DNA from: Mesorhizobium sp.
Lineage (GTDB): Bacteria > Pseudomonadota > Alphaproteobacteria > Rhizobiales > Rhizobiaceae
Assembly: GCA_019509685.1 (NCBI GenBank)
Contig: JAEKLU010000229.1
Span: forward strand, 1 to 20,684
Direction: 5' to 3'
Length of the DNA: 20,684 nucleotides
This document shows positions 2 to 18,466 of the stretch, piece by piece. Made by a program: the position numbers and the translations under genes. Every line of letters begins with the position of its first letter. The first letter of the stretch is position 1. A model generated the notes under the pieces. It was not told where the DNA came from and did no database searches. It saw only the letters and a list, made by a program, of their open reading frames with translations.

Positions 2-139
2 GAGGTGCGCGCCTCAAAGAGCTTCACGGCGAGCGCGCCGGTGTCGGGCAGCGGCAACGCCGCCTATGTCGGCGCGCTGGACAATGCGTTTGGCCAGGCG
101 GCGAAAGATATCGTGCGTTGGACGGATTCCGTTATCTGA
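2..139 (+). CDS. 3' end of PqiC-type ABC transport auxiliary lipoprotein (partial)
   Basis: Only the last 45 codons are in the window, open from base 2 to a TGA at 137-139. The peptide has the pattern V-x-A-S-K-S-F-T-A-S-x-P-V, then L-D-N-A-F-G-Q-A-A-K-D-I-V-R-W-T. I recognise this as the C-terminal end of the ABC-type transport auxiliary lipoprotein family (DUF330, PqiC/YmbA-like). These outer-membrane lipoproteins work with MCE-domain (MlaD/PqiB-like) proteins in lipid transport across the envelope, so MCE and ABC genes are expected just outside the left edge. The lipobox and most of the domain are not visible. The call rests on this short tail, so the family is likely but not certain. Confidence 0.65.
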   Translation, partial: EVRASKSFTASAPVSGSGNAAYVGALDNAFGQAAKDIVRWTDSVI

Positions 140-416: not shown

Positions 417-3400
417 TCAGTGCAAGCGGCCGCTGGCGTGAGCCAGCATGGTGTAGACCTTGCCGGTGTCCGACGTCAGGTAGGTCTGCGCCATGATGTT
501 GTCGCGGTCGTTGCGCGAGACATCCTTGAGCAGCTTCTCGAAATCCTCGCAGTAGCGGTCAACCGCGGCGCGGAATTCCGTCTCGGCCTGATATTTGCGG
601 CGGATCTCGTCGAAGGTCTGCTGGCCCTTCAGCGTGTAGAGGCGGCGCGTGAACACGTCGCGCTCGCCGCCCCTATAACGGTTCCACAATTCTATCGAGG
701 CGTCGTGGTCGATGGCGCGCGCGATGTCGACGGAGAGCGAGTTGAGCGATTCCATGACATGCAGCGGCGAGCGCTGGGCAGGCGTTGCGCGCGGTGCTTC
801 GGCGGGCGTTGCCGGCCTAAGTTCTTCCTCGCGCGAGGCGTTGGTCAACAGATCGCGCACCCAGCCGCCTTGTGGCGTCTTGGCATTGGGATCGCGGCGC
901 GGCGCCTCGGCGGGACGTTCGAGATCGAGCGTGCCGCGCAGCGCCGTCTCGGCGACCGGCGCCTGCGGCGCGCGAGGCATAGGTTGCGGCTGTTGCTGCG
1001 GCTGCGGCGCCGGCGGACGACGCAGCGGCGGTTCGGCCGCACGGGCCGGCGCCTGCGGAGCCGGGCGCAGACCGCGCGGCTCGCCGGCTTCGCTGGAACC
1101 ACTGCGGCCGGATTTCGCAACGATGTCCGACAGTTCCTTCAGCGCATTGATCTGCTCGGCGACGGCACGGCGGATGGCCGAGGTCGATTCCTTGGCCTCT
1201 TCCGGCATCTCGATGACGCCCTTCTTGAGTTCAGCCCGGGTGAGGTCGAGCTCACTCTTGATGGAGCCGGCGGTGCGGCGCATCTCCTCGGTCGCATCGG
1301 CGAAGCGGCGGGTGGCCGATTCGACGACCTCCGTGATGGCCGTGCGGATCTTCTCCGCCGATTCCATCGTGCGGCCTTCCGCGTTCTGCATCGTCTGGCC
1401 GACGAGGTTCTCGAAGGAACGCATCACCCGCTCGAGGTCTTCCGACTTCTTGACCAGGCCGACGGCGAGGTCTTCCAGCGACGACTGACGCTCCAGCGTG
1501 TGCTCGAGATTGCTCTGCGCGGAGCTGAGCAAATTCGAGGCGCTAGACAAGAGGCGGCTGTGCTCGTCGAACTTGGTCGCGATCGAGGCAACCTCGCGCA
1601 GCGTCGACGACGACAGGTCGGTGAGCCGTGTCGTGTTCGAATCGACGAGGCGGGCCGAGGAGGCGAAGGTCTGCGCGGCCTTCTCCGTGGTCGTGGCGAA
1701 GCTCTGCGTCGAGCCGGCAAGCCGTTCCTCGACCTGGCCGAGGTTGACCGCAGCCTGATCGATCAGCTGGCCGAGCTGGGCGCTGGAGGTCGACATGCGG
1801 CCGATGAGGTCGGCCACGCTGTCGGAAAGCGAGGAGCGTGCACCTTCGACGGCCGAAAGCGTCTCGGCGGTGCGGCTGGCGAGCGCGTTGACGAGGCTTG
1901 CGTTTTCGCTGCGCAGCTTCTCGGTCGCCCGCTCGGTGACCTCTTCCATGCTGCGCTGCAGCTCGGATCCACCCTGGGTGAAGCGATCGACCAAGGGTCT
2001 CGCCGTCTCGTCGAGGATTTTCGCCATTTCGGCCGAGCGCGCTGCAAGCATGGTGTTGAGCTCGCGCGTGTTGGAACCGATGGTCCTCGCCGCCTCGTTG
2101 GTGCTCTGGCCGATATGCTGGCCGACCGCGGTGAAGGTCTCGGCAATGACGTTGGCGCGCGAGATCAGCTGCGCTTCGGCGCTGGAGACCTGCTCGTTGA
2201 GCTTCTGGCCCATCGTCTCGGCGGTGTAGGCGAGGCGGTTCTCGACACTCGCCACCTGGTCCTCGACACGGGCGGCGGTAGCGGCGGCGCTCGCCGACAG
2301 CCGCTCGTCGGCGCCGGCCAGCACCTGCTCGATCTCGCGGGCATGCACAGCCAGCTCCTGGCCGGTCTGGCGCGCGCGGTCGGCGACGCGCTGCTCGGTG
2401 GAGGCGAAGGCCCCGATGATGGTGTCGGCATGCTCGCCGATGGCCGAGCTGCTCGAGGCGATGCGCGCAACCAGCCGGTTGTCGGCGTCGTCGAAGATCC
2501 GGCCGATTTCGCCGGCGCGGGCCGAAAGCGCTTCCGAACCTTCCGCGATGCGCGCCATCAATTGCTGGTCGGCGCTGTCGAAGATGCGGCCGAGATCGGA
2601 GGCGCGGGCGGCCAAGGCTTCGGCCGATTCGCCGATGCGCATCGAGAGCCGCTCGTCGGCGCCTTCGAAGTTGCGCAGGATATCGCCGGCGCGGGCGGCC
2701 AGCGACTGCGCGGTTTCGACCGCGCGGGCAACGAGCTTCTGGTCGGCGGCGTCGAAGGTGTTGGCGATCTCGCCGGCGCGGCTGGCCAACTTGTCGGCGG
2801 TTTCCTCGGCGCGGGCCATAAGAGCGCTCGACGCATCGTCGGCGCGAGCCATGAGCATGTTGGACGTATCCTGGGCACGCTCGTGCAGGCGGCGGTCCGC
2901 CTGCTCGAAGGCCTGGGCGATGTCCTCGGCCCTGGCAAGCAGCGCCGCCGAGGTCTGCTCGGCACGTTCTACAATCTTGCGGTCGGCGTCGCTGAAGGCC
3001 GCGCCTGCCTGCTCGTGCAAGGTGCTGGTGACTTCCATCACCTTGTCGCGCAGGGCGCCCGCCACGAAGACGGCGGTCTTTTCCAGGACGCCGCGGACAT
3101 TGTCGACGCCGGTCGAAAGCGCGCGTTCCATGGTGCCGGCGCGTTCCTCGATGATGCCGGTCTGGCGGCTGAAGGCCTGTTCGATCTTTTCGACATCGGC
3201 GGCGATCGCGGCCGAGATGTCACCGCTTCTGGCGGCGATCTGGTCGATATGGCCGGCGACCGAACGGTCGACCTCCTTGCGCGCGTCGGTGAGCTTGACG
3301 AGATCGTCCTCGAGCGCCCGGGTCAGCATGTTGCGGCCCTCGGACAGTTTGCCGACATGGCCGGCAATGATGTCGTCGATATCCGAGCGGCTTTCAGCCA

Positions 3401-6400
3401 GCTTCTTGAGGTCGGCTTCCAGGGCGCGTGTCAGCACGTCACGGCCTTCGGCGAGCTTTTCGACCTGACCGGCGACCAGGCCGTCGATGCCGGCGCGGCT
3501 TTCGGCAAGCTTGGCGAGATCGGCTTCCAGGGCGCGTGTCAGGATGTCACGGCCTTCGGCAAGCTTTTCGACCTGACCGGTGACCAAACCGTCGATGCCG
3601 GCACGGCTCTCGGCCAGCTTGGCAAGATCCGCCTCGAGCGCGCGCTTGAGGATATCGCGGCCTTCGGCAAGCTTCTCGACCTGGCCCGAGACGAGGCCGT
3701 CGATGCTGGCGCGGCTTTCGGCCAGTTTCGCCAGATCGTCCTCCAGGGCCTTCGACAGTGCCGAGCGATTTTGCGAGAGCTGATCGGCATGCGTCTGCAT
3801 GAGGCCGCTGGCGCTCGTCAAATCGCCTTCGAGGGCGCGCGAAAGCTCGGCGCGGTGATCGGTGATCTTCTGCGAATGGTCGACGATCGCGCCCTGGATC
3901 GTGTTGAGGTCGGCCTCGAGCGCACGCTTGAGAATGTTGCGGCCTTCGGCGAGCTTCTCGACCTGACCGGCAACCAGACCGTCGATCGAGGAGCGGCTTT
4001 CGGCCAGTTTCGCCAGATCGTCTTCAAGCGACTTCGACAGCACGGAGCGTTCCTGAACCAAGCGGTCCTGATGGTCGGCAACTGCGCTGCTTACATGGCG
4101 CAAATCGTCCTGCAGGGCATTGGACAAGGCGGAGCGATTCTCGACGAGCTTGTTCTGATGCTCGTTAATGGCGCCGCTGACCGACTGCAGGTCGGCTTCC
4201 AGAGCCTTCGACAATTGGGCGCGATCCTCCAGCACCTTGTCGGAGTGTCCCGCAATGGCACCCTTGATATTGTTGAGGTCGGCTTCCAGCGCGCGCTTGA
4301 GGATATCGCGGCCTTCGGCGAGCTTCTCGACCTGGCCGGCGACCAGGCCGTCGATCGAGGCGCGGCCCTCGGCCAGTTTCGCGAGGTCGGCCTCGAGCGT
4401 CTGCGACAGCACGCTGCGATCGTCGGCGAGCTTGTTGGAATGGCTCTCGATCAAGCCGCGGATGCCGCTCAGATCATGTTCCAGCGCGCGGCTCAGTTCG
4501 CCGCGGTCCTCGGCGATCTTGGCCGAATGGGTGTCGACCAGGCCCCTGATGCCGATAATGTCGGTTTCGAGCGCCTTGGCGAGCACGGCGCGGCCCTCGG
4601 CGATCTTCTCGACCTGGTCGGCGACAAGGCCGTCGATCGAGGCGCGGCTGTCGGCGAGCTTGCCGAGATCGGCTTCCAAGGCGCGGGCAAGGATGTTGCG
4701 GCCTTCGGCCAGTTTGCCGACGTGACCAGCGACCATTTCGTCAATGATCGTACGAGCTTGGACAAGCCTGCTGGAGTCTTCGTTCAAAGCCTGGGCGAGG
4801 CGGTTGCGGCCTTCCTCCAGCTGTTCGAGATGGCCGCCCAGCGACGCGTCGATGGCGGCGCGCGACTCGTTGACCTTGCGCAAATCTTCTTCCAGCGCGC
4901 GCGAGATCAGGCCGCGACCTTCGGCCAGCTTCTGCACCTGGTTGGTGACCGCCGCATCGATCGCGGCGCGGCCCTCGGCGAATTTCGCCAGGTCCGTCTG
5001 CATGGCGGTGGCCATGCGTTCGCGGCTCTCGGAAAGCTTGCGGCTGTGGTTTTCGACGGCTTCCTCGATGCCGACGCGGGCATTGGCGAGCCGCTGGATG
5101 TCGGTATCGAAGGAGCGCGACACGACGTGCCGGGCCGCTTCCATGCGGCCGGCGAAATCGGTGGCGCGGGCTTCGAGCATGGACGAGGTCGACGAGATGA
5201 TGTCGGCCATATCGGCGCCGATCTGCGTCTTGCCCTGGTCGATCATCGACGACAGATGGTCCTTGCTCTCGGCGAAGGTGTGAGCGATCTCGCGGGCACG
5301 TTCGACCAGCGTCTCATTGATCTGGCGGGCGCGGGCTTCCAGCGCGGCATTCAGCTTCTGGGTGCCGGTGTCGAGCGCCTCGGCGCGGGTCTGGAACTCG
5401 CTGATCAGCGCCTGGCCGCGCTCGGCCAGCGTGCGCTCGATGCCGTTGAGGCTTGCCTCGAACTCGGAATTCAACGTGCGCGCCGCGCCGCCGAGCAGCG
5501 AAACCATGCCGTGGGTGCGATCGTCGAGCAGATCGGTCAGCGAACGGGTGAGGCCGTCGGTGGTGTCGGTGAGCTTGGCGATGCGGGTGTCGAGCAGGCT
5601 GGCGAAGGCCTCGCCGGAGGTCGAAAGCCGATCGGTGATGTTGTCGAGGCGCGATTCCACGGAATCGAAGATCGACGTCGAGCTTTCGTTGATGCGATCG
5701 ATCAGCGTGTCGCCGGAATTGTTGATCGTCATCGACAGCTTGGTCGAGGCGTTGAGGATCGAATCGCGGATGATGTCGCTGGCCGCGCCGATCTCGTCGC
5801 GCAACGTTTCGTGAGCGCTGGAGATGGAGGCGCGCACGCGCTCGGCATGGCTGACGACCGCTTCGCGTTCGCTGCCCAGACCGTCGACCAGCGAGCGGAT
5901 GCGGGATTCGTTTTCCGAATAGGAGCGTTCGATCTGGCTGACTTCGCTGTGGACAAGCGTTTCGAGCTCGACCGCGCGCGCCAAAGTGCGCTCGATGCCT
6001 TCGCCCATGGCCGCCACTTCGCGGCGAACGGCCTGGCCGATCATCATGACGCGGTCCTGGGCAAGGTTTTCCGGCTCTGCCAGGCGGAAGGCGACCTCGG
6101 TCATCGATTGCGCGGCGAGGCGCATTTCCTGCGCGCGCCGGATCATGGCGGCAAAGGCCCAGAACAGGATGACCGGAACGATTGCGGCGACCGCAAGCCC
6201 GATGAGCTCGGGGCGGGCGAAGAACTGGTCGAAAGTGCGGATCTTCCAGATGCCGGGGCCGAACAAGAGGTTGGCCAGGCCGCCGGCGCCGGCGATCCAG
6301 GCCAGCGAAACAAACGCGATCACCCAGTAGATGGTGCTCGATGCACGGCGGTTGAGGCTGTGCAGCAGCGTCTTATAATCCTTCTGGCGGTCGTCATTGG

Positions 6401-6710
6401 CGGGCGCAAAGCCGGCCGGCGGCGCGAAGCTGGTCGCCTGGGCATTGCGCGACTCGACCGGACGCAGTTCGGCCGGCTTGGCCGCGGGCGCCTTGGGAGG
6501 CTGGGGCTGCGCCGCCGGCTCTGCCTTCTGGCTGCGGCCTTCGCGCGCCAGTTCGTCCGCCGCCGCCGAAATCTGAGCCTCGAGATCTTCCATCGACGCC
6601 GCCATGTCGAGGCCGCCGTCGTCGCCGTTGAGGTCAAGGTCGAGCGCCTTTTCCAGCTCCGCGGCTACGTCATTCTCGAGAGATTTCGTCGTCGTTGGTT
6701 TCTTAGCCAT
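417..6710 (-). CDS. gpr: Growth Pole Ring-like giant coiled-coil membrane protein (GPR/RgsE family)
   Basis: This is a 2097-residue protein. Residues 1-110 are acidic, then Pro/Ala-rich and probably disordered. Two membrane segments lie at about 126-150 and 166-188. Almost everything from about 200 to 1850 is predicted helical and rich in Ala, Glu, Arg and Leu. It includes 36- and 29-residue repeats with cores K-L-A-E-S-R-A-S-I-D-G-L-V and L-A-E-G-R-D-I-L-K-R-A-L-E. A Pro/Gln-rich linker lies at about 1880-1930, followed by a compact conserved C-terminal region of roughly 150 residues. Automatic annotation often calls such proteins kinesin-like or apolipoprotein-like. Size, N-terminal membrane anchor and repeats fit Agrobacterium GPR (about 2115 residues), which forms a ring at the growing pole and is needed for polar growth and normal shape; RgsE is the Sinorhizobium counterpart. 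The gene is monocistronic, with its own terminator at 374-401. The identification is from family knowledge and architecture. The start is the ATG at 6710, which follows weak CAGGG and AAGG motifs. Confidence 0.78.
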   Translation of the reverse strand: MAKKPTTTKSLENDVAAELEKALDLDLNGDDGGLDMAASMEDLEAQISAAADELAREGRSQKAEPAAQPQPPKAPAAKPAELRPVESRNAQATSFAPPAGFAPANDDRQKDYKTLLHSLNRRASSTIYWVIAFVSLAWIAGAGGLANLLFGPGIWKIRTFDQFFARPELIGLAVAAIVPVILFWAFAAMIRRAQEMRLAAQSMTEVAFRLAEPENLAQDRVMMIGQAVRREVAAMGEGIERTLARAVELETLVHSEVSQIERSYSENESRIRSLVDGLGSEREAVVSHAERVRASISSAHETLRDEIGAASDIIRDSILNASTKLSMTINNSGDTLIDRINESSTSIFDSVESRLDNITDRLSTSGEAFASLLDTRIAKLTDTTDGLTRSLTDLLDDRTHGMVSLLGGAARTLNSEFEASLNGIERTLAERGQALISEFQTRAEALDTGTQKLNAALEARARQINETLVERAREIAHTFAESKDHLSSMIDQGKTQIGADMADIISSTSSMLEARATDFAGRMEAARHVVSRSFDTDIQRLANARVGIEEAVENHSRKLSESRERMATAMQTDLAKFAEGRAAIDAAVTNQVQKLAEGRGLISRALEEDLRKVNESRAAIDASLGGHLEQLEEGRNRLAQALNEDSSRLVQARTIIDEMVAGHVGKLAEGRNILARALEADLGKLADSRASIDGLVADQVEKIAEGRAVLAKALETDIIGIRGLVDTHSAKIAEDRGELSRALEHDLSGIRGLIESHSNKLADDRSVLSQTLEADLAKLAEGRASIDGLVAGQVEKLAEGRDILKRALEADLNNIKGAIAGHSDKVLEDRAQLSKALEADLQSVSGAINEHQNKLVENRSALSNALQDDLRHVSSAVADHQDRLVQERSVLSKSLEDDLAKLAESRSSIDGLVAGQVEKLAEGRNILKRALEADLNTIQGAIVDHSQKITDHRAELSRALEGDLTSASGLMQTHADQLSQNRSALSKALEDDLAKLAESRASIDGLVSGQVEKLAEGRDILKRALEADLAKLAESRAGIDGLVTGQVEKLAEGRDILTRALEADLAKLAESRAGIDGLVAGQVEKLAEGRDVLTRALEADLKKLAESRSDIDDIIAGHVGKLSEGRNMLTRALEDDLVKLTDARKEVDRSVAGHIDQIAARSGDISAAIAADVEKIEQAFSRQTGIIEERAGTMERALSTGVDNVRGVLEKTAVFVAGALRDKVMEVTSTLHEQAGAAFSDADRKIVERAEQTSAALLARAEDIAQAFEQADRRLHERAQDTSNMLMARADDASSALMARAEETADKLASRAGEIANTFDAADQKLVARAVETAQSLAARAGDILRNFEGADERLSMRIGESAEALAARASDLGRIFDSADQQLMARIAEGSEALSARAGEIGRIFDDADNRLVARIASSSSAIGEHADTIIGAFASTEQRVADRARQTGQELAVHAREIEQVLAGADERLSASAAATAARVEDQVASVENRLAYTAETMGQKLNEQVSSAEAQLISRANVIAETFTAVGQHIGQSTNEAARTIGSNTRELNTMLAARSAEMAKILDETARPLVDRFTQGGSELQRSMEEVTERATEKLRSENASLVNALASRTAETLSAVEGARSSLSDSVADLIGRMSTSSAQLGQLIDQAAVNLGQVEERLAGSTQSFATTTEKAAQTFASSARLVDSNTTRLTDLSSSTLREVASIATKFDEHSRLLSSASNLLSSAQSNLEHTLERQSSLEDLAVGLVKKSEDLERVMRSFENLVGQTMQNAEGRTMESAEKIRTAITEVVESATRRFADATEEMRRTAGSIKSELDLTRAELKKGVIEMPEEAKESTSAIRRAVAEQINALKELSDIVAKSGRSGSSEAGEPRGLRPAPQAPARAAEPPLRRPPAPQPQQQPQPMPRAPQAPVAETALRGTLDLERPAEAPRRDPNAKTPQGGWVRDLLTNASREEELRPATPAEAPRATPAQRSPLHVMESLNSLSVDIARAIDHDASIELWNRYRGGERDVFTRRLYTLKGQQTFDEIRRKYQAETEFRAAVDRYCEDFEKLLKDVSRNDRDNIMAQTYLTSDTGKVYTMLAHASGRLH
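2481..2828 (-). repeat. 87-bp (29-residue) tandem repeat array inside gpr
   Basis: The marker gtcggcg recurs at 2481, 2568, 2655 and 2742, exactly 87 bases apart. In the protein this is a run of 29-residue units at about 1295-1410, each starting A-D-x-x-L and containing an A-R-A-G/S-D/E-I/L core. The neighbouring stretch to the right spaces the same marker by 153 bases (51 residues), which equals one unit plus two 11-residue steps of the type M-A-R-A-D-D-A-S-S-A-L. The units are diverged, so this is an old protein repeat and not a recent DNA duplication. Confidence 0.75.
3313..3744 (-). repeat. 108-bp (36-residue) tandem repeat array inside gpr
   Basis: Four units in register, each 108 bases long, start at 3313, 3421, 3529 and 3637 (protein residues about 990-1133). 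By eye, the units at 3421 and 3529 differ at about 13 of 108 positions, so they are close copies. Further single copies of the same unit occur near 3918, 4287 and 4579, separated by 29-residue units. The coded unit contains K-L-A-E-S-R-A-x-I-D-G-L-V-x-G-Q-V-E followed by K-L-A-E-G-R-D-I-L. Confidence 0.8.
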
Positions 6711-7005
6711 GCCTTCGCTACCCTGTACTAGCTGCCGCGGGACTTATGATTTTGGCCTGATTCTGGCCCGATTCTGGCTTGTCTATCCCGCGCAGGAGGC
6801 TGAAAAATGGACCTTCGTATCGTAATGACACACAGGGGTAAAGAAAACATGCATTCGGGCCGATACGTAAAACTTTAAATATAAGGTTAACGCAGGCGTG
6901 ATGCGCTTGCCTCCGTGACAACATTTTTCCGCGCCAATCGTTAACCCGATGGCGACCGGAATCGCCTATTTTCTTGGGCTGTCTGCCCGCTTGATGGAGT
7001 TTCTA
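6711..7005. other. Divergent intergenic region between gpr and the HPt gene
   Basis: About 295 bases carry no convincing gene. An AT-rich island at about 6861-6890 stands out in this GC-rich DNA and probably holds the promoter of one or both flanking genes. It contains TTAA-N8-TTAAC at 6875-6891, and another TTAACC lies at 6941-6946. A short direct repeat of gattctggc lies at 6758-6778. I could not place convincing -35/-10 pairs on either strand. Confidence 0.4.
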
Positions 7006-15598: not shown

Positions 15599-15705
15599 GC
15601 CTGTTATCCTGTTGTTCCCGAGAACTTCCTTGCATGCACTGGGAGGGAGAGGCAAGGGCAGCGGGCCTGCCAGTAAGGGTAGGGTGCCGTTGAAACGGTC
15701 TCCGC

Positions 15706-15734
15706 TTGCCTGCCGGACGTTCGGCATCTATAAT
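15706..15734 (+). promoter_or_regulatory. Putative leaderless promoter of the AraC-type gene
   Basis: TTGCCT (15706-15711), a 17-base spacer and a perfect TATAAT (15729-15734) end only six bases before the ATG at 15741. The expected transcription start is the A of that ATG or within a base or two, and no Shine-Dalgarno sequence is present. Confidence 0.55.
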
Positions 15735-15740
15735 TGCGAA

Positions 15741-16730
15741 ATGTCTGACTATTCGTCCCGAGCGTCTTCGGCGCCGCATATCCCGATGGATGCGCTCAGC
15801 GAAGTCCTGCAGGACTTTCGCCTGAGTGGCGTCAACTATGGCCGCTGCGAGCTGCGGCATCCATGGAGCATCGCCTTCCCGCAACAGAAGCTGCTTCGTT
15901 TTCACTTTGTCGGCCAGGGTCCGTGCTGGATTTATACCGAGGCGGAGGGCTGGCAGGAGCTGCGCGATGGCGATCTGGTGCTGCTGCCGCAGGGCGTCGC
16001 GCACCGGCTGGCCAGTGCGCCGGACGTTGCAGGCGACTCGCTCGAAGGTTGCCAGGTGACCAAGCTGGGTGGCAATGTCTGCGAGGTGGTAAGGCAGGGA
16101 ACGGGCGCGACAAGCACGCTTTTCTGCGGCTCCATGACTTTGGGCGCTTGTGCGCTTAACCCATTGATCACGTTGATGCCGCCAATCATCAAGGGGTGCG
16201 ACGTGGCCGGCAATGACCCGGTCGTCCGCCCCTTGCTGGCGGCCATGACAGCGGAGGCCGCGCAACCGCAGATGGGCAGCGCCACGATTCTGTCGCGCAT
16301 GGCCGACTTGCTGACGGCCCGGCTTATCCGCTGCTGGGTTAATTGCACGGGGGCCTCGACCACCGGTTGGCTCGCCGCCATCCGCGACCCGCATATCGGC
16401 CGCGCTCTGGCAGCCATGCACCGCGACCCCGGCCATAACTGGACGCTCGAAAGCCTCGCCGCCCTGGCAGGCCAATCGCGCTCGATTTTCGCCGAGCGCT
16501 TCAGCGCGGTATTGGGCGAGGGTGCCGCACGCTATCTCGCCCGCCTGCGCATGCAGCTTGCCCGCGATTTGCTGGGGCAGAACGGCTTGTCGGTTGCCGA
16601 GGTCGCGACCCGTTTGGGCTATGATTCCGAGGCATCCTTCGCGCGCGCGTTCAAGCGCATCACGAATGTCTCGCCGGGCGTTGTGCGTCGCACAATTCCC
16701 GGACGAACGGACATGAATTTCGGATTTTAG
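15741..16730 (+). CDS. AraC-family transcriptional regulator with N-terminal cupin domain
   Basis: A 329-residue regulator. The N-terminal part (about 10-190) looks like the cupin-type sensor of AraC proteins, with F-H-F-V-G-Q-G-P-C-W, L-R-D-G-D-L-V-L-L-P-Q-G-V-A-H. The C-terminal part (about 225-320) has the two helix-turn-helix motifs: W-T-L-E-S-L-A-A-L-A-G-Q-S-R-S-I-F and V-A-E-V-A-T-R-L-G-Y-D-S-E-A-S-F-A-R-A-F, ending in the usual S-P-G-V-V-R-R. ATG 15741 is chosen because it opens the cupin domain and follows a consensus promoter; the frame upstream is open but unlike a protein. It is divergent from the antiporter gene and 59 bases upstream of the exporter gene, which it probably regulates. 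The effector is unknown. Confidence 0.9.
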   Translation: MSDYSSRASSAPHIPMDALSEVLQDFRLSGVNYGRCELRHPWSIAFPQQKLLRFHFVGQGPCWIYTEAEGWQELRDGDLVLLPQGVAHRLASAPDVAGDSLEGCQVTKLGGNVCEVVRQGTGATSTLFCGSMTLGACALNPLITLMPPIIKGCDVAGNDPVVRPLLAAMTAEAAQPQMGSATILSRMADLLTARLIRCWVNCTGASTTGWLAAIRDPHIGRALAAMHRDPGHNWTLESLAALAGQSRSIFAERFSAVLGEGAARYLARLRMQLARDLLGQNGLSVAEVATRLGYDSEASFARAFKRITNVSPGVVRRTIPGRTDMNFGF

Positions 16731-16758
16731 GCCACATATCATCCGGAAGGACTCGTCT

Positions 16759-16797
16759 ATGAATATCCCCAACCTTTGGAGATATTCTGATGACTGA
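16759..16797 (+). CDS. Putative 12-codon leader peptide upstream of the exporter
   Basis: A short ORF codes for M-N-I-P-N-L-W-R-Y-S-D-D. It has a strong Shine-Dalgarno sequence, GGAAGG (16745-16750), 8 bases before its ATG. That is a better context than the exporter's own start has. The ORF runs through the hairpin 16761-16787 and ends with TGA at 16795-16797, overlapping the first 8 bases of the exporter gene in another frame. A ribosome translating it would melt the hairpin and stop next to the exporter ATG. Such an arrangement is known from translational attenuation and coupling, but there is no direct evidence of expression here. Confidence 0.45.
   Translation: MNIPNLWRYSDD
16761..16787 (+). 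promoter_or_regulatory. Hairpin sequestering the exporter Shine-Dalgarno sequence
   Basis: gaatatc (16761-16767) pairs perfectly with gatattc (16781-16787). After one C/A mismatch, ccaa pairs with ttgg around a 3-base loop. The exporter's Shine-Dalgarno sequence GGAG (16778-16781) lies wholly in the 3' arm, and the start codon is two bases further on at 16790. In DNA form it could instead be a palindromic operator. Confidence 0.5.
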
Positions 16798-18001
16798 CAC
16801 GACATTACAGCTTGAAGACGGGCCGTTAGACCTCGATGCCGAAGCACCGGCGGCGTGGAGCGCAGCCACCTGGTTCGCGGTCATTTCATTGGCGGCCACC
16901 AGCTTTGCCCTGGTGTCGGCCGAATTCCTGCCGGCAGGTCTGTTGACGCCGATGGCGCGCGACCTTGGCATCAGCGAAGGAACGGCTGGACAGGTCGTCA
17001 CCGCCACCGCTTCGGTGGGCGCCGTGACGGCGATGTTGAGCAATGTTCTTATCGGCCGGTTGAACCGCAAGACGGTGCTGGTTGGCCTCATGGCCTTGGC
17101 GATCGGTTCCAATATTCTTGCAGCACTGGCGCCCAATTTCTGGCTGTTGCTGCTGGGCCGGGCAGGGCTCGGAATCGCTATCAGCGCTTTCTGGGCCCTT
17201 TCGGTCGCGGTCGTGGCGAGGCTGGTCGGCGCCAACGCGACAGGTCGAGGCATGGGTATCGTCACCCTCGGCGTCTCGCTTGCCACCATCGCCGCACCGT
17301 CGATGGGGGCGTTGATCAGCGACTGGCTGGGCTGGCGCAGCGCCATGGCCATGACGGCCGGGCTGGCCGTGGTTGCCATGCTGCTGCAATTGCTTAGCCT
17401 GCCGACCTTGCCTGCAACAGCCAGCAACAGTCTTGCGGACGTGTTCCGGTTGACAGGGCGGCGCGGCATTCAACTCGGCATGCTTGCCATTCTCTTGCTG
17501 ATGACGGGGCATTTCGCCGGCTCGGTCTATGTGCGGCCCTTCCTCGAACAGGTGACGCTGCTTGCAACCGGGCCGATTGCGCTGGCTCTGCTGGGATTTG
17601 GCGTCGCCGCAGTGATCGGCAATATTGCCGGTGGCCGCCTGGCCGACGCCAATATCCGCTTTGCTCTCGTAGTAACCGCCGCGTTGATGGCGATTGCGGC
17701 GCTGGCATTGGTGTTCTGGGGCGTGCACATCGGCGTTGCCTTCGGCTTCGTCACGCTTTGGGGCCTGGCCTTCGGCATGGGGCCGGTGGTGCTGCCGACC
17801 AATCTGTCGCGTGCGGCACCCGATGCGCTGGAAGCCGCGGGCAGCCTGATGGTCGTCTCTTTCCAGATTGCCATCACCACTGGAGCGGTTGTCGGTGGCT
17901 ATGTCGTGGACACCTATGGCGCAACGGGGCCCTTGACCCTTACCGCCATTCTTGCCGTGACGACGGTGGCGCTGGCGCTGCTGCAGCCTCGCGGCGACTG
18001 A
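16790..18001 (+). CDS. MFS exporter, DHA1 family, NepI-like
   Basis: A 403-residue protein with 12 expected membrane segments. After a 25-residue acidic N-terminal tail, the first helices carry A-E-F-L-P-A-G-L-L-T-P-M-A, D-L-G-I-S-E-G-T-A-G-Q and, after helix 2, G-R-L-N-R-K. The same wording, E-F-L-P-x-x-L-L-T-P-M-A-x-D-L-G-I-S-E-G, is what I recall from E. coli NepI, the purine ribonucleoside exporter; I-G-W-R/L-G-W-R and the closing G-A-x-I/V-G-G-Y also agree. The transport of purine nucleosides or analogues is therefore possible, but sugar or drug efflux by a sister protein cannot be excluded. It follows the AraC gene by 59 bases, and a leader peptide and hairpin may control its translation. 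The start ATG 16790 has GGAG 8 bases upstream. Confidence 0.88.
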   Translation: MTDTTLQLEDGPLDLDAEAPAAWSAATWFAVISLAATSFALVSAEFLPAGLLTPMARDLGISEGTAGQVVTATASVGAVTAMLSNVLIGRLNRKTVLVGLMALAIGSNILAALAPNFWLLLLGRAGLGIAISAFWALSVAVVARLVGANATGRGMGIVTLGVSLATIAAPSMGALISDWLGWRSAMAMTAGLAVVAMLLQLLSLPTLPATASNSLADVFRLTGRRGIQLGMLAILLLMTGHFAGSVYVRPFLEQVTLLATGPIALALLGFGVAAVIGNIAGGRLADANIRFALVVTAALMAIAALALVFWGVHIGVAFGFVTLWGLAFGMGPVVLPTNLSRAAPDALEAAGSLMVVSFQIAITTGAVVGGYVVDTYGATGPLTLTAILAVTTVALALLQPRGD

Positions 18002-18021
18002 ACTTTGCTGCAGCGGACGTA

Positions 18022-18045
18022 GGGCGGCCTGAATTCGGGCCGCCC
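18022..18045 (+). terminator. GC-rich hairpin after the exporter gene
   Basis: A perfect 8-bp stem, gggcggcc (18022-18029) with ggccgccc (18038-18045), has an 8-base loop and starts 21 bases after the exporter stop. No clear T-run follows, so it is a likely but atypical terminator. Confidence 0.5.
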
Positions 18046-18152
18046 GTCATTGCAGGCTGGTTACACAAGTTTATGCACTCCGGTCGTTGCATCCCGCCAC
18101 AATCAGCGGTTAAGGCACGCCTGGCTGGAGCCATCAGGCTTTGGCCATTTGG

Positions 18153-18184
18153 AAAGGCAGCAGCGATGGGCGGCTGCCTTTTTT
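18153..18184 (+). terminator. Terminator-like hairpin just before the small secreted protein gene (possible attenuator)
   Basis: The 9-bp stem aaaggcagc (18153-18161) with gctgccttt (18173-18181) is followed by a run of six T residues (18179-18184), a textbook intrinsic terminator. It lies directly against the GAGGAG Shine-Dalgarno sequence (18185-18190) of the next gene. Either the gene's promoter lies between the hairpin and the ATG, for which there is no room, or transcription must pass through it. That makes it an attenuator candidate or the end of a short RNA. Confidence 0.55.
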
Positions 18185-18199
18185 GAGGAGATGACTGAC

Positions 18200-18466
18200 A
18201 TGAAGAAGTTTTTGCTCGTTGCCGTTGGTGTTGCGGCACTCGCCGGCTCGGCCTGTTCCAAGGGACCGGAATGCACGCAGGAGATGGCCGCCAAGAAGGC
18301 GCAGGATATGGCTGCAGCACTTCAGGCAGCGATCACCAAGGATCCGTCCAAGGCTGCCGACCTCACCGCCAAGGTGCAGGCCGTGACGACCAAGTATCAG
18401 GGCGCGACGACACTGGACGAGGCCTGCAAGGCCTATGACGAACTGACTGCGGCGATCAAAAGCTAA
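18200..18466 (+). CDS. Small exported or lipoprotein-like protein of unknown function
   Basis: An 88-residue protein. The first 19 residues are a signal sequence: K-K, then F-L-L-V-A-V-G-V-A-A-L-A-G-S-A-C. Cys19 is placed like a lipoprotein Cys, but the residues before it (G-S-A) match a lipobox only poorly, so cleavage by ordinary signal peptidase is also possible. The mature part is helical and Ala/Lys/Gln-rich, with Cys25 and another Cys in E-A-C-K-A-Y-D-E-L that may pair. I do not recognise the family. ATG 18200 is chosen because GAGGAG lies 9 bases upstream and the signal sequence starts there; the in-frame ATG 18191 touches the Shine-Dalgarno sequence. It has its own terminator at 18486. 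Confidence 0.75.
   Translation: MKKFLLVAVGVAALAGSACSKGPECTQEMAAKKAQDMAAALQAAITKDPSKAADLTAKVQAVTTKYQGATTLDEACKAYDELTAAIKS

Follow-up and report, generated by a model that had tools for sequence, protein, structure and literature searches.

Results

Organization of the locus and of the compared sequences

The window analyzed here, a 20,684-nucleotide stretch of Mesorhizobium sp. DNA (contig JAEKLU010000229.1), carries a gene for an AraC-type regulator followed on the same strand by a gene for an MFS exporter (Table 1). The top NCBIfam match of the exporter is the purine ribonucleoside exporter NepI (NF007578), at 229.8 bits and thus below the curated cut-off of 584. A scan of positions 15600-18200 found no terminator-like site between the two genes. 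Elsewhere in the window, a 2097-aa open reading frame on the reverse strand (417-6710) has an apolipoprotein-like match of 86.6 bits, just below the Pfam cut-off of 90, and a similarly long frame of 2103 aa (420-6731) lies opposite to it on the forward strand.

For the comparison, exporter loci were collected from named genomes as the best 80 of 181 matching relatives. Counts over 79 rows refer to the window and the 78 loci carrying a conserved upstream block; two Pseudomonas loci without the block (L019 and L032) were omitted, which reduces 81 rows to 79. The 74-row sets contain the distinct YTA-to-start sequences of the 79 rows together with L105, L107 and L108, which were picked by hand from 14 matching genomes among 397, the loci of the remaining 11 being absent from the alignments. 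The 71-row sets contain the distinct sequences without these three.

Table 1. Positions of genes and predicted elements around the exporter start (window coordinates)
Feature	Position	Strand	Remarks
araC promoter TTGCCT-17-TATAAT	15706..15734	+	6 nt 5' of araC ATG
Inverted operator copy over araC promoter and first codons	15713..15758	-	46-column match to exporter operator
araC	15741..16730	+	AraC-type regulator, 329 aa, Cupin_6 and HTH_18
Palindrome TTGTGC-N3-GCACAA	16681..16695		left edge of conserved block; exact in 60/79 rows
Probable AraC operator	16700..16746	+	CGGA at 16700-16703 and 16721-16724, 21 bp apart
Probable -10 box TATGAA (consensus TATnAA) of exporter promoter	16758..16763	+	T16758 and A16759 invariant in 79/79 rows
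12-codon leader ORF, MNIPNLWRYSDD*	16759..16797	+	not regarded as a conserved gene
SD-masking hairpin	16761..16787	+	arms 16761-16772 and 16776-16787, 12 nt, 92% complementary, 3-nt loop
Predicted exporter mRNA start (inferred)	16770..16772	+	in or beside hairpin loop
Exporter Shine-Dalgarno (SD) GGAG	16778..16781	+	from sequence; 8 nt 5' of exporter ATG (16790)
MFS exporter	16790..18001	+	403 aa; Pfam MFS_1 above its cut-off

A conserved hairpin covers the Shine-Dalgarno sequence of the exporter

An inverted repeat whose 3' arm contains the GGAG of the exporter had been described in the earlier note, and it is present as described; its single mismatch in the window is a C facing the A of GGAG. 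Taken alone, the fold of the window is ordinary (96 nt, z -1.18, 24 of 200 shuffles at least as stable), and the hairpin signal comes from the comparison across loci rather than from the window itself. In the hairpin alignment (A2), 79.6% of the cells pair and 9 of the 11 pairs have changed on both sides, so that the compensating stem changes which the earlier note had proposed as a check were indeed found. The covariation score was 0.193, compared with 0.125 ± 0.009 for shuffled alignments, with none of 500 shuffles as high. None of the 500 reached the observed value on any of five measures, and slid versions all scored lower. RNAalifold applied to the same alignment gave only two consensus pairs (-0.28 kcal/mol).

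Pairing of the SD itself was widespread: among 74 distinct sequences, all four bases of GGAG pair with the upstream arm in 66, three in 7 and two in 1. The SD has a mean upstream-pairing probability above 0.8 in 63 of 71 exporters, a set without the paralogue loci L093-L096 and L128-L138, compared with 30 of 222 background starts. The background is an uncurated set of long ORFs bearing an SD-like motif, collected by script from 400 kb of the M. ciceri WSM1271 genome. Moreover, pairing between the two arms of a locus is stronger than the average pairing with arms of diverged loci in 70/74 cases, by 3.6 kcal/mol on average, versus 1.15 kcal/mol and 48/74 in a reversed-arm control. Outside the SD-facing pairs this signal is weak (flank-only -1.28 vs -0.98 reversed). 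The sequence of the arms turns over while complementarity is kept, and the spacing between the arms differs among lineages. We conclude from the aligned sequences that the hairpin has been conserved and that its arms have changed in pairs. Masking is predicted to be weaker in the window than in most relatives (0.75 vs a median of 0.9995, n=71) due to the C-A mismatch at GGAG. In many single folds, CGTC also pairs with the start-codon region, a candidate outer pairing. A search of Rfam gave no match to the hairpin with an E-value of 1 or less; two IRES_Bip matches lie away from the hairpin and far under the gathering score, and were rejected.

The leader frame is not conserved

The earlier note had interpreted this layout as translational attenuation or coupling, in which translation of the exporter depends on ribosomes on a short leader. 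In resistance genes of the erm and cat type, leader-peptide attenuation involves a small ORF adjoining an SD-masking hairpin, and the window shares both features. Its ORF is complete, with the ribosome-site-like GGAAGG at 16745-16750 and a TGA that starts five bases after the A of the exporter ATG, just as had been claimed. The leader half of the claim held up less well: while the SD-burying hairpin stands, the leader frame on which attenuation would rely is broken in relatives, an outcome that the earlier note had itself named as refuting. An ATG occurs at the leader position in 39/79 rows, where it falls into three frame classes relative to the exporter (24, 8 and 7 rows); 9/79 rows have another start codon within the leader stretch, and 31/79 have no ATG, GTG or TTG in it at all. 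The arrangement of the window, with a leader stop and exporter start that overlap to within 8 nt, is seen in 14/79 rows, whereas in 7/79 the leader is fused in frame with the exporter, and only 2/79 rows have GGAAGG. G16761, which makes the leader ATG, is a G in 41/79 rows and carries 0.25 bits, compared with 2.0 bits for T16758 and A16759. The leader thus appears to be without any sign of selection as a peptide. Therefore, although the complete ORF, its ribosome-site-like sequence and the ATG found in many rows speak for attenuation by a 12-codon peptide, the shifting frames and stops, the fusions, the startless rows and the rarity of GGAAGG make it very improbable.

Probable promoter and operator of the exporter

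The two invariant bases within the leader ATG region are better accommodated by a promoter. The distance from the motif ACATATCATCC to the first YTA at least 20 nt away is 23 nt in 79/79 rows, while the interval between this YTA and GGAG ranges between 20 and 24 nt. Fixed spacing upstream and variable spacing downstream are the pattern expected of a promoter adjoining an RNA element, and the invariant TA with the bases that follow it (TATnAA) is probably a -10 box. Since the leader ATG coincides with this box, an mRNA from the exporter promoter would not contain the leader. A rhizobial promoter consensus is given as CTTGAC-N17-CTATAT (PMC2873474, excerpt); at the exporter promoter the CTAT fits and the -35 does not. 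A -35 hexamer was not recognisable, and a promoter scan of 15600-18200 did not report this promoter.

Upstream of the -10 box, a conserved block (16681-16744) overlaps the last codons of araC. In a gap-free comparison of the 72 araC-bearing rows, the wobble positions of araC carry 1.58 bits within the block (16 sites) and 0.93 bits upstream of it (104 sites; p = 1e-5), a comparison in which unseen indels would lower the upstream value. Both CGGA repeats are present in 73/79 rows. Each is followed after 6 bases by a GAYA-like box, the second of which reads GCCA in the window, and the columns of box B are less evenly conserved than those of the CGGA boxes. Two half-sites with boxes 6 bp apart and a 21-bp repeat correspond to the layout of AraC/XylS-type operators, and we regard 16700-16746 as a probable AraC operator.

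A related block lies in inverted orientation over the promoter and first codons of araC. It matches the exporter operator with a score of 24.9, compared with 11.7 ± 2.0 for shuffled columns (0/10000 as high), and still scores 18.1 against 9.6 ± 1.8 (0/10000) without the 8 aligning bases. This copy provides indirect support for the predicted binding of the cognate AraC to the exporter operator. The araC promoter was the sole promoter-like match in 15600-18200, where 0.5 would be expected by chance. A TTGnnn-16..18-TAnnn[A/T] sequence 4-9 nt before the ATG is present in 54/72 araC-bearing rows, and the other 18 mostly deviate in the last base of the -10. Because the -10 ends 6 nt before the ATG, the araC mRNA is probably leaderless. 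The overlap of araC promoter and start with a relative of the operator suggests autoregulation.

Transcripts starting inside the hairpin are predicted to have a more exposed Shine-Dalgarno sequence

In 71/71 sequences, the first purine at a distance of 6 nt or more past the -10 box (observed at 6-9 nt) is located on the 3' side of the anti-SD arm, a rule that partly builds in its result since this arm is pyrimidine-rich. An RNA starting in the loop would lack the anti-SD arm, so that its GGAG would be more exposed. In predictions for read-through RNA, the median probability that the SD is unpaired is 0.0003, with values below 0.2 in 63/71 sequences. For the short RNA from the exporter promoter the predicted median is 0.36, and it exceeds that of the read-through RNA in 70/71 sequences. 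Opening is often partial: values are above 0.5 in 24/71, at most half in 47/71 and below 0.2 in 20/71, and the median falls to 0.23 if the start is fixed 4 nt past the -10.

Loci without araC and paralogous loci

Seven of the 80 loci (L017, L020, L021, L025, L033, L068 and L039) keep the block without an araC match upstream, with only 329 bases available upstream in L020, and L107 from the further set of 397 genomes is an eighth such locus. In L039, a short stretch resembling araC remains at the position of the block itself. The block thus persists where the coding sequence does not. The nearest relatives of AraC encoded by the genomes of L017, L025, L068, L039 and L107 share only 41-45% identity.

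The other six of the seven loci (L017, L020, L021, L025, L033 and L068) belong to Agrobacterium or Rhizobium rhizogenes, and in them the operator makes up, with the hairpin and the exporter, a unit of ~1.3 kb whose upstream flanks differ from locus to locus. Of the 15 possible pairs, 11 were compared. Their similarity sets in 0-16 nt ahead of the palindrome (L017 coordinates) or at the equivalent position, and for 10 of the 11 pairs it stops within ~110 nt of the exporter end; L017 and L021 remain alike for 2.3 kb beyond the exporter. From these boundaries it looks as if the operator-hairpin-exporter unit had moved. In L021, a stretch like the downstream flank is also present upstream, as judged by eye.

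The hairpin persists in the loci without upstream araC, and therefore read-through from araC cannot be the sole reason for it. For a unit placed beside unlike neighbours, insulation from any upstream promoter is a candidate reason that is consistent with its presence there. Five paralogue loci with a divergent araC served as a control and have SD pairing of 0.5 to 0.75 (the start of L092 being taken one codon late). They still mask the SD although araC read-through is not expected, so that this control does not support the model. Exporter paralogues 42-44% identical are found at L091 and L124 next to a divergent araC, the start of which carries (T/C)GGA repeats at a spacing of 21 bp according to a count by eye. 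The Pseudomonas loci L019 and L032, which lack the block, have a divergent LysR-like gene (named by eye) and weak start-region folds of -5.6 and -3.0 kcal/mol.

Discussion

Our comparison of exporter loci suggests a switch between two transcripts, in which an AraC-controlled promoter of the exporter gives an RNA with a freer SD while read-through RNA is masked; we consider the chances of this explanation to be about even. In this model, araC would be transcribed from its own promoter, probably as a leaderless mRNA and without a terminator found before the exporter. The exporter promoter would sit in the 3' end of araC, with two CGGA-N6-GAYA half-sites overlapping the -35 position and TATnAA as the -10. 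Its RNA would start at ~16770-16772 in the hairpin loop, whereas RNA from araC or any upstream promoter would carry both arms, fold the hairpin and hide GGAG. Most translation of the exporter would thus take place while its AraC-controlled promoter is active. The hairpin, the fixed spacing between block and TA, the retention of the block without araC and the related block at the araC promoter are the parts for which the comparison of loci argues directly. We infer the binding of AraC, its action as an activator and not as a repressor, the position of the start and the silencing of translation. As operator and promoter fill the 3' end of araC, a terminator may be hard to fit in, and a translational mask could substitute for it.

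A different start site would change this picture. TATCAT at 16737-16742, each base of which shows 90-100% conservation, could be a -10 as well, and transcription would then start upstream of the whole hairpin at ~16749. In that case the hairpin would lie within the exporter's own mRNA and hold translation down until it is opened, be it by temperature, by an sRNA or RNA chaperone, or by a protein. Such an RNA would have a closed SD (median 0.0003 unpaired), and the persistence of the hairpin without araC fits this explanation as well. On the other hand, the first two bases of TATCAT deviate from TA in 14/79 rows (6 non-T at 16737, 8 non-A at 16738), so that a critical -10 base is altered there, compared with 0/79 in the downstream TA. 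The probable AraC half-site would also cover the -35/-10 region of such a promoter, and the lack of an Rfam match gives no known family for a hairpin of this kind. We therefore consider a start at ~16749 unlikely, though it is the alternative to which we attach some weight.

The palindrome at 16761-16787 might instead act as DNA, with a dimeric repressor binding to it over the start site, as its dyad is near-perfect and a probable regulator site adjoins it. The turnover in sequence with complementarity kept and the varying arm spacing seen here are unlike a fixed protein site, which renders this reading improbable. It is similarly doubtful, indeed quite improbable, that the hairpin merely tunes basal translation or mRNA stability without any switch: the exporter's own mRNA is predicted to be only partly open, as such tuning would allow, but masking is strongly conserved across genera.

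Returning to the two-transcript switch, we tentatively propose, at somewhat less than even confidence, that the efflux gene is a self-insulated unit, which would have its operator and promoter in the 3' end of the regulator gene and its start within the loop of the hairpin that masks the SD. Efficient translation would then be confined to RNA driven by the regulator. In some Agrobacterium genomes, the unit of ~1.3 kb would have moved between sites and remained insulated from the genes newly beside it. If this is true, the hairpin may prevent exporter synthesis from stray transcripts entering from araC, and a promoter -10 box adjoining an anti-SD arm would provide a signature that can be searched for. 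The locus also holds a warning that short ORFs next to hairpins can be disguised promoter boxes; its small ORF and SD-masking hairpin resemble erm and cat leaders, but the leader here is not conserved.

Comparison with known systems

At the Pm promoter, the repeats are spaced 21 bp apart and the distance from repeat to -10 is 36 nt; the corresponding distance at the exporter operator is 37 nt. XylS recognizes two 15-bp direct repeats at Pm, each with a box A and a box B 6 bp apart (PMC5481539, excerpt). The Pm boxes are TGCA and GGTA, in contrast to CGGA and GAYA in the exporter operator, where AraC binding is predicted.

Occlusion of a ribosome-binding site by a stem-loop protects IS10 from impinging transcription. 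In IS200, a stem-loop likewise occludes the ribosome-binding site (PMC3196728, excerpt). These hairpins guard transposases, while the hairpin described here fronts an efflux-type gene.

In the open-licence PMC literature on the exporter, AraC and masking, we recognised nothing as this arrangement, which is weak evidence of absence. The closest layout is that of phage T4 gene e, where long RNAs started upstream mask the ribosome site and short RNAs from an adjacent promoter lack the 5' part of the hairpin (PMC3014915, excerpt). Similarly, the ribosome site of I-TevI is masked in long RNAs, and a promoter immediately upstream gives short RNAs without the 5' portion of the hairpin (PMC2988022, excerpt). 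By prediction, the exporter shares with gene e a long RNA whose hairpin would sequester the ribosome site. A short RNA that lacks the 5' arm and would be freer may exist as well, given the invariant TA at fixed spacing, with TATCAT as a rival -10. Gene e and I-TevI are phage timing circuits with late promoters, whereas the exporter belongs to bacterial genomes, follows the gene of an AraC-type regulator and has a predicted start. If the model holds, a bacterial gene would use the T4-type arrangement of long and short RNAs in place of a terminator, where the control regions of a regulator and its target overlap.
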